Source: Candidatus Moraniibacteriota bacterium
GTDB taxonomy: Bacteria; Patescibacteriota; Minisyncoccia; Moranbacterales; UBA1568
Assembly: GCA_013334245.1 (NCBI GenBank)
Contig: JAAXXZ010000013.1
Span: forward strand, 1-33,603
DNA: 33,603 bases
Direction: 5' to 3'
Shown piece by piece: positions 17,818 to 24,047 of this stretch. Positions within the stretch are counted from its first letter, which is position 1, and each line of letters begins with the position of its first letter. The translations under genes were made by a program, and so were the position numbers. The notes below the pieces were generated by a model. It did not search any database. It had not been told where the DNA came from and saw only the letters and a program-made list of their open reading frames with translations.

Positions 17818-17842
17818 CTTCTATCTGTTATGTGTTATCTAT
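17818..17842. repeat. short word array at the proS stop codon
   Basis: On the minus strand, AGATAACACATAACAGATAG follows and overlaps the proS stop codon and consists of repeated GATAAC/CATAAC words. The 200-bp gap down to the UMP kinase otherwise holds a weak CCACA-N9-TGTGG inverted repeat (17698-17716) and a possible TAGAAT -10 box. Confidence 0.4.
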
Positions 17843-19077
17843 TGATCGAAATATTTCACCAACCCGGAAATGCCGACCATCTCCGTTTCCTCCCCGGTAC
17901 GTCTCTTCACTTCAGCCTCGCCCGATTCCGCTGACCGTTTTCCGATCACGACACGATACGGGATGCCCAACAGGTCGCTGTCGGCGAACTTCTCCCCCGC
18001 GCGTGCGTCCCGGTCGTCGTACAACACCTCGATCCCAGCTTCCGTAAGCGCCGTGTAGACCTGCTCCGCCTGTTCGTCCGCTCCGAGCGATATCAGATGC
18101 GCCTTGAACGGCGCCACCGATTCAGGCCATACGAGCCCCTTTTCGTCGGCGAACTTCTCGATGACGATTCCCATGAGACGGGTGATGCCGATTCCGTACG
18201 ACCCCAGAATGACCGGCTTCTGACTTCCGTCGTCGTCCTTGAAGTACAACCCGAGCTGTTCACTCTTCGTTCCGCCGAAACTGAAGATATTTCCGACCTC
18301 GACCGACTTCACCTCCTCGAGAGACTCGCGGCTTACTCCGAGCTGCGACATGACCTCGTCGGTCAATACCTCCTGGTTGATCGCGATATTTTTTGCCCGA
18401 TCAAGATAAATGACATCCTCCCCGACCTCGGAAACGGTTTGGAATTCGTGACTGAACTGCGTGAAGGCGCCGCCGGACGCGAACGTCAGGAACGTGGAAT
18501 CGCCCAGCCCGACCCGGTCGAACACCCGAAGGTATGCCTCTATGACCCGGTCGTAGAACGCCTTATGATCCTCTTCCGTCCGACTGTACGAATACAGGTC
18601 CTTCATGACGAACTCCCGGCCGCGCATGATTCCGGATTTCGCGCGAAGTTCGTTTCGCAGTTTCGTCTGGAACTGATATCCGTATACCGGAAGATCCCGA
18701 TAACTCGAGATATAGCCGCGCATCATGTCCGTTATCGGTTCCTCGTGCGACCAGCCGAAACCGACTTGACCGCCGCTCTTCAACTCGGACTTGAACCAGA
18801 CGTCGACGTTCCTATCATCCCAACGATCCGTCCGTTCCCACAGCTCCTTCCGCTGAAGCGACGTCATGATGAATTCCTGGCATTCCAAGTCATTCATTTC
18901 TTCGCGGACGATGTCCTTGATTTTCTCCATGACTCGCAGACCGAGAGGCATATAGGCATACACGCCGGCCATTTCCTTGTGGACGTACCCGGCACGGATC
19001 AGAAGCTGGGCATTCCGGCTCTCCTCGTCCTTCGGCGCCTCTCGGCGCGTTTTGGTGAATAACTGACTCTGTCTCAT
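17839..19077 (-). CDS. proS: prolyl-tRNA synthetase, short form
   Basis: This 412-residue class II synthetase charges tRNA-Pro. The catalytic core is complete: WSHEEPITD (about 109-117), motif 2 as RNELRAKSGIMRGREFVMKDLYSYS (about 141-165), and motif 3 as LGSYGIGITRLMG (291-303). The C-terminal anticodon-binding domain follows (YDDRDARAGEKFADSDLLGIP). The usual bacterial enzyme has about 570 residues with a roughly 180-residue editing insertion between motifs 2 and 3. Here only a few tens of residues lie there (about 224-262), so the editing domain is missing. It has its own promoter at 19136-19164. Confidence 0.95.
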   Translation of the reverse strand: MRQSQLFTKTRREAPKDEESRNAQLLIRAGYVHKEMAGVYAYMPLGLRVMEKIKDIVREEMNDLECQEFIMTSLQRKELWERTDRWDDRNVDVWFKSELKSGGQVGFGWSHEEPITDMMRGYISSYRDLPVYGYQFQTKLRNELRAKSGIMRGREFVMKDLYSYSRTEEDHKAFYDRVIEAYLRVFDRVGLGDSTFLTFASGGAFTQFSHEFQTVSEVGEDVIYLDRAKNIAINQEVLTDEVMSQLGVSRESLEEVKSVEVGNIFSFGGTKSEQLGLYFKDDDGSQKPVILGSYGIGITRLMGIVIEKFADEKGLVWPESVAPFKAHLISLGADEQAEQVYTALTEAGIEVLYDDRDARAGEKFADSDLLGIPYRVVIGKRSAESGEAEVKRRTGEETEMVGISGLVKYFDQ

Positions 19078-19135: not shown

Positions 19136-19164
19136 ATCATACCCGAACGGGTATTCCGGGTCAA
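19136..19164 (-). promoter_or_regulatory. promoter of proS
   Basis: On the minus strand TTGACC (19159-19164), a 17-bp spacer and TATGAT (19136-19141) match the consensus at 5 of 6 positions in each box. The expected leader is about 50 nt. The -35 box shares bases with the T-tract of the HtrA-like gene's terminator. Confidence 0.75.
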
Positions 19165-19187
19165 AAACCGCCCGGATATCCGGACGG
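19163..19187 (-). terminator. terminator of the HtrA-like gene
   Basis: On the minus strand CCG-T-CCGG, loop ATAT, CCGG-G-CGG is followed directly by TTTTT. The hairpin begins 34 bp after the stop codon of 19222-20412. Confidence 0.75.
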
Positions 19188-19221
19188 CCGATTTGATACG
19201 TCGTTCAAGCTGAAATGCGGA

Positions 19222-20412
19222 TCAAAACTGGACGGGAACGTTCATTTCCTTATCGTTCCGAAGGACCAGCAACTGCGCGAACTCCCCCTTCGACAATCGG
19301 CCGATCGCGGCCGAGAGCGGATTGTCGAGATTGATCTCGGTTCCGTTCACTGCGATTACGATATCGCCATAGCGTAAGCCGGCCTTATCGGCAGCCGATC
19401 CTGAAAGGACGGAAAGACCCGTCTTGCCTGATGGCGAAAATATGAGTGCACCTCGATCCCGGGAAACGACCCCGTTTCCCGCCGACGATGCCTTTGTCAG
19501 GGTCAGGTAGTAAGCGCCGAGCGAGGCCCGATCCGAAAGCGAGCCGGAAGTGGCGAGCCGCAACGAATCCCGGACGACATTCGAAGGAAGCAGGAAGAAC
19601 TTGTCCTTGCCGTCAAGCTCGACATCGCCGAACAATCCGACCATCTCGCCCCGGAAATTGACCGCGGGTCCGCCCAGATACGGCTCAGGGTTGGCGAGAT
19701 CCATTTCGAACACCCCCTCCCACTTCTCGGAGGACGCGACCGTCTTTCCGGACAGATTGAACAGCTTGTTCCGATTGCTGAGCACGCCGATGGAAAACCG
19801 GTTCTGATATTCCTCGTAGGCGTTTCCTATCGCGACCAGTTTTTTTCCGGGAACGGAATCGTCCGAATTCGCAAGGGATATCGCCGGAAAGTCGTTTCCG
19901 TCGATACGGAAAAATGCCAGGTTCGTCAGCCGGTCATACCCGACGAACGAAGCCTCATGGCTCGATCCGTCGTGAAGCAGTGCATGAAATGCCGCGGTCG
20001 TCGTCAGCGGCGTCTGACCGGACGGACCAGCCTCCTCCGCGAACGGATCGCCATACGTCACGATCATCCCGTCATTGGTCAGGAGAACGCCGGTACGACT
20101 CTTTCCTTCCTGAAAAACCGCCCCGGTCGAGCCTTTGGGAACCGCGGAGATGATGTTCACGACCGCGGTCGCCGGCTGCGAGACGATGGTATCGACCGAG
20201 TCATCCTCACGCACGATCAGTTGTTCCTTACGTTCGATGACCGTCGTATTGCCGACGATATTGCGAAAGACGTCCATTCGCGAAATCGACGGGAACGAAG
20301 CGAGCAAGTACGGGATCGCGCGGTCACGGAAAAAAATGCCGCCGAGACCGCCGACCACGAATACGAATACGGAAAATGCCGCGAACAGGAGTATTTTCTT
20401 AGTCTTTGACAT
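19222..20412 (-). CDS. HtrA/DegP-like trypsin-fold PDZ protein without catalytic triad
   Basis: This protein has 396 residues from ATG 20412; GTG 20436 gives 404 and lies where transcription should begin. It has an N-terminal membrane helix (about 6-28), a trypsin-like domain (about 75-290) and a PDZ domain (about 305-392, with GSAADKAGLRYGDIVIAVNG). Aligned by eye to DegP, the catalytic positions are all changed. The TNNHVV position reads TYGDPF (His to Asp122), the SDIALI position reads TNLAFF (Asp to Asn164), and the GNSGG position reads PYLGG (Ser to Leu246). The fold motifs around them (GVLLTNDG, LVAIGNAY, GGPAVNFRGEMVGL, LPSNVV) are kept. It should therefore be an inactive, membrane-bound chaperone or scaffold facing outside. 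Single-gene unit with promoter and terminator. Confidence 0.88.
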   Translation of the reverse strand: MSKTKKILLFAAFSVFVFVVGGLGGIFFRDRAIPYLLASFPSISRMDVFRNIVGNTTVIERKEQLIVREDDSVDTIVSQPATAVVNIISAVPKGSTGAVFQEGKSRTGVLLTNDGMIVTYGDPFAEEAGPSGQTPLTTTAAFHALLHDGSSHEASFVGYDRLTNLAFFRIDGNDFPAISLANSDDSVPGKKLVAIGNAYEEYQNRFSIGVLSNRNKLFNLSGKTVASSEKWEGVFEMDLANPEPYLGGPAVNFRGEMVGLFGDVELDGKDKFFLLPSNVVRDSLRLATSGSLSDRASLGAYYLTLTKASSAGNGVVSRDRGALIFSPSGKTGLSVLSGSAADKAGLRYGDIVIAVNGTEINLDNPLSAAIGRLSKGEFAQLLVLRNDKEMNVPVQF

Positions 20413-20442
20413 ACCGGAACGGTTGATGACCTGCACCGGACG

Positions 20443-20488: not shown

Positions 20489-21244
20489 TCAGACCTGGAT
20501 CCGCCAGGGCGACGTCGCCAAAAGAAGTCCGATAAGGGCGATAAACACGGAAAGATACATGAGTGTCCTTTTCCGCGAAATGGTTCCGAGAAACAGCGAG
20601 TTCGCCATATCCCACAATATGAAGAAGGACATGAGCGAGACGACCCCGGTCGCGAGATATCCGAACGGCCAGAACGAGATCGTCCATGAAATCTCTCCGA
20701 CCCCGAACGCGACGATGGAGGAATACAACGCCACCCTCCGCTTGTCGCCGTGCAGGGTGGAAGAAAGCGTCTGATATGCCGCGCCGAACGATCCGATGGC
20801 GAACGCGAACACGAGCGTCGAAAGGGGGACGGAAAAGTTCAGGTAAAAACCGAATGCCGCCGCGTAAAAGAAGAACAGTGCGGAAAGCATGGCTACCGAG
20901 AGCATGGAACGGGCCGTCCTATCTTTCGGCGCGAACCGGAGCCGATACAGCGCTAGGAACGCGACATAATACATGCCGGACGCAAGTACGGAAAAGACCG
21001 TTTTCTCTCCCGCATCGTCGACAAGCGACAAAACCGCCGGAGCCGAGAACGAAAGCAAGAGGGGGATAAAGCTGTTCCGCAGGCGTTTCGTTATCTTTTT
21101 CGCAGAAACGAGGGATAAGACCGCAAGCAAGGCCGCGGAAAAGACGTACCCGACCCAGAAAAGGTCATATTCGCGGGCCGCGACGAACTGCATCCCGAGG
21201 AAGAACGCGACCGACCAGAAAAAAATGGTGAAATGGAAGATCAT
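20489..21244 (-). CDS. integral membrane protein, unknown family
   Basis: This protein has 251 residues from ATG 21244 and is almost entirely hydrophobic, with about eight membrane helices (for example FHFTIFFWSVAFFLGMQFVAA at the start and YLSVFIALIGLLLATSPW at the end). Short charged loops (KKITKRLR, RLRFAPKDR, LHGDKRR) suggest topology by the positive-inside rule. No catalytic motif is evident. The start codon overlaps the stop codon of the small reading frame 21241-21405 by ATGA, and that frame overlaps the clpB stop in the same way, so this gene is probably read from the clpB transcript. That links it, by context only, to the heat-shock regulon. Confidence 0.75.
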   Translation of the reverse strand: MIFHFTIFFWSVAFFLGMQFVAAREYDLFWVGYVFSAALLAVLSLVSAKKITKRLRNSFIPLLLSFSAPAVLSLVDDAGEKTVFSVLASGMYYVAFLALYRLRFAPKDRTARSMLSVAMLSALFFFYAAAFGFYLNFSVPLSTLVFAFAIGSFGAAYQTLSSTLHGDKRRVALYSSIVAFGVGEISWTISFWPFGYLATGVVSLMSFFILWDMANSLFLGTISRKRTLMYLSVFIALIGLLLATSPWRIQV

Positions 21245-21405
21245 ACCGGAAGTCGTGACTGATGCCAGCGTACCAGGGAGTGACCCGGCAGGCAAGCCGG
21301 GATGTGGCACTCCCATGATTCGCGCATTTCATCGTCATCGCGAAAACCCGCGCTCCCGTCCTCGGCGACACGTCGAAGCAAATCAGCAACATCCGTCACA
21401 TTCAT
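21241..21405 (-). CDS. small protein (54 aa) coupled to clpB
   Basis: Between clpB and the membrane-protein gene lies a 54-codon frame. Its ATG overlaps the clpB stop (ATGA at 21402-21405) and its own TGA overlaps the next start (ATGA at 21241-21244). Two perfect 4-nt couplings support it as a gene. The product starts [17 protein letters not shown] and has an acidic DDDE segment, then [12 protein letters not shown] with two cysteines and two histidines that could bind a metal, and ends basic. The second half of the DNA also forms a strong hairpin (21276-21314), so the region may have a double role. No known family. Confidence 0.5.
21276..21314. repeat. strong imperfect hairpin inside the 54-codon frame
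   Basis: Outer arms GGGAGTG / CACTCCC (21276-21282, 21308-21314) and inner arms CCCGGC / GCCGGG (21284-21289, 21296-21301) surround the loop AGGCAA. No T-tract follows on either strand, so it is not a standard terminator. It could stabilise or attenuate the message between clpB and the membrane-protein gene. Confidence 0.65.
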
Positions 21406-24047
21406 GACTTCCGTTTCTTCCGCTTTTCTCCTGCTCCGAACGTGAATCCGTCTTTGCCGGCATCGACGGAAATTCCGGCGGCAGGAACCTTACCTTCGAT
21501 GACGGAAAGGGCGAGCGGATCGAGAATATCGCCCTGTATGACCCGCTTGAGCGGTCGGGCCCCGTAGAACGGATCGAATCCCCTTTCGGCAAGACGTTTC
21601 CGAGCCGCCTCGGTGAACGTGACGACGATGTCTTTCATGCCGAGCCGGTCCGTCACTTTGGCAAGCTCGAGGTCGACGATATGGCGAATGACATCCCGTG
21701 ACAAAGGATGGAAGATGACGATCTCATCGATACGGTTCAGGAACTCGGGACGGAAGGTTTCCCGAAGACTCTTCATGACTCTGTCGCGGATCGACTCCTC
21801 CGATAATTCCTCATCGCCCGCCTTCGGCCTTTTTTCACTGAACCCGAGCCGCTCCGCGCGGGCGAGCGTCTCGGATCCCACGTTCGACGTCATGATGATG
21901 ACCGTATTCTTGAAGGAGACCGTCCGCCCCTTCGCATCGGTCAGTCGTCCGTCGTCGAGGATCTGCAGCAGTATATTGAAGACGTCCGGATGCGCTTTTT
22001 CGATCTCGTCGAAGAGAACGACCGCATACGGTCGACGACGAACCTTTTCGGTCAGCTGCCCGCCTTCGTCGTATCCCACGTAACCCGGTGGCGAACCGAT
22101 GAGTTTCGCCGTGGAATGGGATTCCATGAACTCGCTCATATCGACGCGGACGAGCGACTTCTCGTCGTCAAACATGAAGCCGGCGAGTGCCTTGGCAAGC
22201 TCCGTCTTCCCGACGCCGGTCGTCCCGAGGAAAATGAACGATCCGATCGGGCGCCCCTCTTCCGACAGACCCGCTCGGGAACGCCGTATCGCGTTCGAGA
22301 CCGCCGCGATCGCCTCGTCCTGTCCCACGACCCGTTTCTTCAGTTCCGTTTCCATGTGCACGAGCTTCTTGGCCTCGGTCTCGAGCATCTTGGACACCGG
22401 TACGCCGGTCCACTTCGAGACGACCGCGGCGATATCCTCCTCCGTGATTTCCTCCTTGAGGATCGAGCCGGCCTGCTGCAGTTTCGACAGCTTTTTCTCC
22501 TCCGCGGAGAGCTCCTTCTGGATCTCCGGAATCTTGCCGTACCGTATCTCTGCCACCAGATCGAGCTCGCCACGGCGTTCGGCCATCTCTGCCTCGGACT
22601 TCAGGCGATCGATCTCCGCCTTGTGCGAGCGCAGTCCCGCGATCAAATCGCGTTCCCCCTTCCACTGGAGCGAGAGTTTCCCGGACGCTTCACGCAGGTC
22701 CGCAAGTTCACGATCGATTTCCACGGCCTTCCTTTTGGAACGATCATCCATATCCTTCTCAAGCGCGCGTTTCTCGATCTCGAGCCGACGGACATTGCGT
22801 TCCAAAGCGTCGAGCTCCGTCGGCAACGAGTCGATTTCCATGCGCCGCAGGGACGCGGCTTCGTCTATGAGATCGATCGCCTTGTCCGGAAGGAACCGGT
22901 CGCTGATGTAGCGCCGCGACAGCCGCACGGCCGCCACCACCGCGTCGTCCGTGATCCGGACGCCGTGATGCAGCTCGTACTTCTCCTTGATGCCCCGCAG
23001 GATCGCAATCGCGTCCTCCTCGGAAGGTTCCGAGACGAAGACCGGCTGGAACCGCCGCTCGAACGCGGCGTCCTTCTCGATGTATTTCTGGTATTCCTTG
23101 AGGGTCGTCGCGCCGATGGTCCGAAGCTTTCCGCGGGCAAGCGCCGGTTTCAACATGTTGGACGCGTCAAGCGCGCCATCGGTAGCACCGGCACCGACCA
23201 GCGTATGGATCTCGTCGATAAACAGGATGAACCGGTCCGCCGAGCGCTCCACCTCCTTCAACACCGACTTGAGCCGCTCCTCGAACTCGCCTCGGAACTT
23301 CGCCCCGGCAAGCAGCGAACCGAGATCGAGCGAGATGATTTCGCGCCCCTTCAGACTCTCGGGCACGTCACCCGAGACGATCCGCTGAGCCAGCCCTTCC
23401 GCGATCGCGGTCTTGCCGGTTCCGGCCTCGCCGATCAGCACCGGATTGTTTTTCGTCCGGCGGGACAGCACCTGCATGACGCGACGTATCTCCTCGTCCC
23501 GTCCGATGACCGGATCGAGCTTCTCTTCCCTCGCAAGCTTCGTCATGTTGACGGCATACTTGTCGAGCGCCTGATAGGACGACTCGGGCGTATCACTTTC
23601 GACCCGGGCCCCTCCACGGATTCCCGATAGTGCCTGAAGGACCTGATCGTAATCCGCGCCGTGCCTAAAGAGGATATCTCTCGAATCTCCCGGTATCGAC
23701 AGGAGCGCCAGCAACAGATGTTCCGTCGAAAGGTACGAGTCGCCGAGCTTCTTCATCTCCCGATCCGCCTCGTCGAACACTTTCGCGAGTACCGGCGAGA
23801 GATACAGTTGCGTCTGTCCGGTAGAGCCCTTCGGAAACGCGTCGATCGCATCAAGCGTCGCGCCCTTGATCGCGTCGAGATCCGCGCCGGACTGGGCAAG
23901 CGCCCCCGGCACGATCGAATCCTCCTGCAACAGAAGCGCGTACAGGAGATGCTCGGGACGGAATTCCGTATTCCCACGCGACAAAGCGTTTTCCTGCGAA
24001 TGTCGTACGGCCTCCTGACTTTTCTGGGTAAAATTGTTGATATTCAT
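21402..24047 (-). CDS. clpB: ATP-dependent disaggregase ClpB
   Basis: This 881-residue HSP100 chaperone dissolves protein aggregates with DnaK in the cytoplasm. Domains in order: double Clp N-domain (1-145); AAA1 with GEAGTGKT (206-213) and ILFIDEIHT (274-282); coiled-coil middle domain (about 405-530); AAA2 with GTTGVGKT (608-615) and [11 protein letters not shown]-terminal sensor-2 region [10 protein letters not shown]; and a basic tail (EKRKKRKS). The usual Pro of the second P-loop (GPTGVGKT) is Thr, a mild change. No ClpP-binding loop is evident, as expected for ClpB. A CIRCE operator and promoter lie upstream, so HrcA heat-shock control is likely. No Shine-Dalgarno site is seen at ATG 24047. 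Confidence 0.97.

Follow-up and report, generated by a model that had tools for sequence, protein, structure and literature searches.

A non-cutting HtrA-like protein of Moranbacteria and its constant neighbour DUF5656, a putative envelope quality-control pair in Patescibacteria

The window analyzed here, a 33,603-nucleotide stretch of DNA from a Candidatus Moraniibacteriota genome, encodes a non-cutting HtrA that is maintained under selection and whose most constant companion is the membrane protein DUF5656. We consider it slightly better than an even bet (probability of about 0.55) that this membrane-anchored non-protease (pseudo-HtrA, or dead HtrA) is the outward-facing partner of DUF5656 in an envelope protein quality-control unit, with catalysis handed to a second HtrA. 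The features behind this reading were established at the level of sequence: a dead active site, a retained HtrA fold with its PDZ domain and membrane anchor, purifying selection, adjacency to DUF5656, and a separate active HtrA. We infer the molecular function of the pseudo-HtrA, including a complex that would bind unfolded envelope proteins or signal their presence. The host group consists of ultra-small candidate-phyla bacteria.

The pseudo-HtrA gene lies on the minus strand in a frame that is open for 404 codons from its GTG and for 396 codons from the ATG at 20412, the latter being the start to which the residue numbers of an earlier sequence-only reading correspond. Pfam searches of the product identified Trypsin_2 (PF13365, E 7e-15) and PDZ_2 (PF13180, E 2e-9), a PDB sequence search returned DegQ, HhoA, and DegP chains, and the NCBIfam models for active HtrAs scored far under their cut-offs. 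The AlphaFold model, built from an input of 76 homologues (pLDDT 88), comprised a trypsin barrel preceded by an N-terminal helix and followed by a PDZ domain; among PDB structures, DegP, MucD, and DegQ matched it best (E about 1e-21 to 1e-22). The HtrA/Deg fold, a trypsin-like double barrel followed by a PDZ domain, was thus found by both Pfam and the model, in agreement with the sequence-only reading, which had described retained fold motifs and a PDZ domain and had proposed a structural comparison. The polypeptide ends after the PDZ domain, and the membrane partner is encoded as a separate gene. The juxtamembrane motif is conserved across the dead family, with no counterpart seen in the order's active paralogues. 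The residues named earlier at the His, Asp, and Ser sites were recovered in the same places by alignment to 31 intact paralogues using ATG numbering (Table 1).

Table 1. Features of the pseudo-HtrA locus and its neighbours, in window coordinates.
Feature	Coordinates	Strand	Basis or remark
Pseudo-HtrA gene	19222..20436	-	GTG start 20436; likely ATG start 20412, 396 aa
N-terminal helix, residues 3-39, membrane anchor	20296..20406	-	Model helix and hydrophobic sequence
Juxtamembrane motif NTTVIERKEQLIVRED, residues 55-70	20203..20250	-	Dead-family consensus NVTVINKTEQVxVKED
Asp122 at catalytic His position	20047..20049	-	Alignment to 31 intact paralogues
Asn164 at catalytic Asp position	19921..19923	-	Alignment to 31 intact paralogues
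Leu246 at catalytic Ser position	19675..19677	-	PYLGGP replaces PGNSGGP
PDZ domain core, PF13180, residues 334-394	19231..19413	-	Pfam
DUF5656 gene	20489..21316	-	Partner gene with about 9 transmembrane helices; probably starts at ATG 21226 with MIFHF, as relatives do
Sigma70-like promoter site ahead of DUF5656	21240..21268	-	Weak, 9 of 12
ClpB disaggregase gene, conserved neighbour	21402..24047	-	TIGR03346 above cut-off
Proline--tRNA ligase gene	17839..19077	-	Neighbour in the window's family only; promoter-like site 19164-19136
Intrinsic terminator	19163..19189	-	GC-rich hairpin then U5, -22.5 kcal/mol over a 56-nt stretch

The strongest clue, which the sequence-only reading overlooked, is the near-obligate pairing with DUF5656 within a cluster that also holds an active HtrA, ClpB, and a parvulin PPIase. 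Within the order, the arrangement seen most often is, on one strand, DivIC-like gene, parvulin PPIase, active HtrA, ClpB, DUF5656, and dead HtrA. DUF5656 was located directly upstream of the dead HtrA in 74 of the 75 evaluable named loci, and in the single exception (L078) it was found elsewhere in the same genome. The assignment of this neighbour to PF18900 (28.3 bits) exceeds the Pfam cut-off of 23.3. Structure prediction rendered it with high confidence as approximately nine membrane helices, and a fold search with it gave no match to solved structures (best E 0.17). As a separate observation, one species within this genus (L256, G002 contig C31) has DUF5656 parted from the dead HtrA and placed between ClpB and an MreB-like gene; the genus is that of the window.

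DUF5656 and the dead HtrA are probably carried on one transcript, as no promoter-like site was present in the 52-76 bp gap between the two genes, the nearest upstream site (21268-21240) precedes DUF5656, and a hairpin with U5 follows the dead HtrA. The promoter of its own that had been attributed to the pseudo-HtrA gene was therefore left unsupported; the terminator attributed to it corresponds to the stable hairpin listed in Table 1. The adjacent proline--tRNA ligase gene probably does not belong to the unit. Its product is a short form of prolyl-tRNA synthetase (412 aa) that full-length models match in two pieces; the inserted editing domain is probably missing.

The distribution of the pair was surveyed in genomes of which many were fragmented, with mechanical ORFs as gene calls. 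The dead copy and the active HtrA were both found in nearly all of 38 genomes drawn from the genus, family, and order, and almost all named relatives belong to Candidatus Moranbacteria/Moraniibacteriota. When 286 genomes sampled evenly across the class (20 of the same order, Ca. Moranbacteria, and 266 others) were searched, the dead-family profile scored at least 461 bits in 20/20 same-order genomes, which all contained DUF5656 as well, and above 261 bits in none of the 266 others. DUF5656 itself was detected in 50 of these 266 genomes from other orders. For 24 of the 45 loci fetched there, a short PDZ-less HtrA-like gene was observed close downstream of DUF5656 or its ClpB context, and these 24 genes have neither the His nor the catalytic Asp.

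A search of the phylum by DUF5656 alone, blind to its neighbours, revealed that DUF5656 occurs across Patescibacteria, and 53 loci outside the class were examined. The next gene was an HtrA in 41 of them, with the triad intact in 10, degenerate in 30, and in one (L248) present as its three letters but with an altered GNSGG motif; the other 12 loci had no adjacent HtrA, and families with only an HtrA-ClpB-DUF5656 arrangement were also encountered. Trypsin_2 genes were then counted in 40 of the genomes outside the class that carry a DUF5656-linked HtrA. A live linked HtrA was the only Trypsin_2 gene of the genome in 8/10 cases, whereas a degenerate one (29 genomes plus that of L248) was accompanied by a separate strong HtrA in 29/30, of which 28 had a verified triad and one was apparently broken. 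The contrast corresponded to a Fisher p of 5e-6, uncorrected for relatedness among genomes that span about 20 families and are not phylogenetically independent. As judged from gene content, two states therefore replace each other across the phylum: in one, DUF5656 accompanies a live HtrA and the genome has no other trypsin-like gene; in the other, it accompanies a dead HtrA, and a separate live one is present. The exchange of live for dead copies suggests a link between DUF5656 and the HtrA scaffold rather than its catalysis.

In the proposed mechanism, a single live HtrA would ancestrally have performed both jobs, and once cutting had passed to a second HtrA, the copy bound to DUF5656 would have decayed to a scaffold. 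The dead HtrA and DUF5656 would bind each other, possibly via the juxtamembrane TVINKTEQ motif, and the barrel and PDZ domain would remain able to bind client segments that are unfolded or C-terminal. The complex, itself making no cuts, may hold such clients and pass them to the active HtrA and the parvulin PPIase, or it may report them. The PDZ domain is missing from many relatives, and thus PDZ-based client binding cannot be universal. More tentatively, and at a little under even odds, DUF5656 and a membrane-anchored HtrA may form an ancient two-part complex of Patescibacteria with a proteolysis-free core function, in which the HtrA is catalytic only while it is the sole HtrA of the cell and its triad is lost when a second HtrA does the cutting, so that live and dead versions coexist.

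The host genome contains one other Trypsin_2 gene, located on contig C31 next to a parvulin PPIase and a DivIC-like gene. Its triad is intact, which answers the question raised with the sequence-only reading of whether an active HtrA exists elsewhere in the genome. The dead copy could instead be a regulatory subunit of this enzyme, mixing into or docking on its trimers and switching cutting on or off as in the MamO-MamE system. We regard this as unlikely, although it can draw on the clustering of the active HtrA with the dead gene in most genomes, on the triad being intact in 65/65 active paralogues, and on the requirement of MamO, which has no triad of its own, for MamE-dependent proteolysis (PMC4794232). 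Rate covariation left over with the active HtrA (partial r 0.24) also favours it; the value for the dead HtrA with DUF5656, beyond ClpB and HtrA, was 0.39 (Mantel p 0.0015). The dead HtrA is tied more tightly to DUF5656, which stays adjacent in the window's genus while the active gene is on another contig. The dead copy is further without the long inserted loop of the active paralogue, and its activation loops differ throughout.

The neighbouring ClpB and parvulin PPIase, together with the chaperone and protease roles described for HtrA proteins (PMC12826053), would also suit a free-standing membrane-tethered holdase chaperone that shares nothing with DUF5656 except a stress operon. However, the operon mates ClpB, PPIase, and ProS vary, whereas DUF5656 is directly adjacent phylum-wide, and we give this explanation a small chance.

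The substitutions proved to be kept by relatives, a check that had been named for the sequence-only reading. Among 87 non-redundant dead orthologues, the catalytic His was retained in none, the catalytic Asp site was mostly Asn, the Ser site was Val, Ile, or Leu in 76, and position 194 was Tyr or Phe in 70. The oxyanion Gly193 has also been lost across the dead family, and the pseudo-HtrA accordingly lacks both the His-Asp-Ser triad and the glycine that characterize an active (S1C) enzyme. An intact triad elsewhere in the protein would have spoken against a pseudoprotease and was looked for; no column of a 76-sequence alignment of the dead family contained an invariant or nearly invariant His, and there is thus no sign of a relocated triad, which we consider ruled out. 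A protease with a rebuilt active site is very improbable for the same reason, since the His site is never His, Gly193 is lost, and the Ser site is mostly hydrophobic; in its favour, a Ser at position 195 is kept in 2/87 sequences in the order and 5/24 of the short relatives.

The dead copy is under strong purifying selection, with dN/dS values within the genus (about 0.08-0.19) as low as those of the active HtrA (0.13-0.29), in line with the earlier description of an intact gene. A decaying pseudogene, to which the loss of all three catalytic residues might point, is ruled out by a dN/dS near 0.1, frames intact in the great majority of genomes examined, and conserved motifs. With no His at the catalytic position in any orthologue, strong purifying selection, and an active HtrA elsewhere in the genome, the pseudoprotease proposed from the sequence alone is strongly supported.

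In phylogenetic trees, the dead family and the active family of the order each formed a clade, and for this reason descent of the dead copy from a recent duplication of the HtrA of that order is not favoured. Dead copies from inside and outside the order grouped against active ones with a support of 90, which is not conclusive, and a tree grouping the dead and active families of the order was not rejected (p-AU 0.456). The trees neither showed nor rejected that all dead DUF5656-linked HtrAs descend from one origin (p-AU 0.505). The split between DUF5656-linked and other HtrAs (99.6) is confounded with class membership, as the live-linked rows are all from outside the class.

The pseudo-HtrA shares the trypsin barrel, the PDZ domain, and the envelope-side location with the active HtrAs DegS, DegP, DegQ, and MucD (MEROPS S1C), and its N-terminal anchor resembles that of DegS; it differs from them in having neither the catalytic triad nor the oxyanion glycine. 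The magnetosome pseudo-HtrA MamO cannot activate MamE without its multi-pass TauE-like membrane domain at the C-terminus, and the coupling of the dead HtrA to a membrane protein recalls this domain (PMC4794232). Both systems keep a degenerate HtrA in one cluster with an active one, with the oxyanion Gly193 replaced and a non-catalytic role (PMC4794232). Such a cluster was found in the majority of the order's genomes; the window's genus has its active gene on another contig. MamO, in contrast, is specific to magnetite formation; its Ser is replaced by Thr, it has a di-histidine metal site, and its membrane domain is fused, whereas the pseudo-HtrA has all three catalytic residues replaced, no conserved His, and a membrane partner, DUF5656, that is a separate gene found phylum-wide. 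The surface di-histidine metal-binding motif was absent, as no nearly invariant His occurs in the 76 sequences. By the features compared, the pseudo-HtrA is not a MamO, and by analogy it may have a similar working mode. Plant Deg/HtrA proteins, as portrayed in the part of the source cited here, likewise retain protease domains with mutated triads, namely AtDeg16 and the second domain of AtDeg7, the latter serving trimerisation; they are eukaryotic, and that part describes no multi-helix membrane partner (PMC3473262).

Within the library searched, nothing relevant was retrieved on DUF5656 (PF18900), Moranbacteria proteases, or HtrA in Patescibacteria/CPR; the DUF5656-HtrA link is described in the present work. 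The protease and non-protease roles of HtrA are thought hard to separate. Evolution appears to have split them here, with one gene cutting and the other keeping a non-cutting job tied to the uncharacterised DUF5656, and the pairing suggests that this non-cutting job is old. The outcome is a function hypothesis for DUF5656, a phylum-wide set of live and dead HtrAs for comparison, and, for organisms that can seldom be cultured, a testable picture of envelope quality control.

Several other arrangements of DUF5656 were observed. In one family of the class (f40), the gene after DUF5656 is threonyl-tRNA-synthetase-like (L197, L198, L204) or CTP-synthase-like (L205) and not HtrA-like. In family f14, the active HtrA is directly followed by a shortened (~164 aa) DUF5656-like gene (L208:3777-4271, L212:1211-1705, L220:4108-4605, L224:4378-4872). 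Outside the class, DUF5656 is in three loci directly followed by a gene matching the parvulin-PPIase profile (87-102 bits) instead of an HtrA (L263:2178-3131, L271:2650-3708, L280:2463-3578). Several genomes (f138 and others) harbor a second, more divergent DUF5656 paralogue a few kb away (L253:3425-4393, L255:7883-8785).
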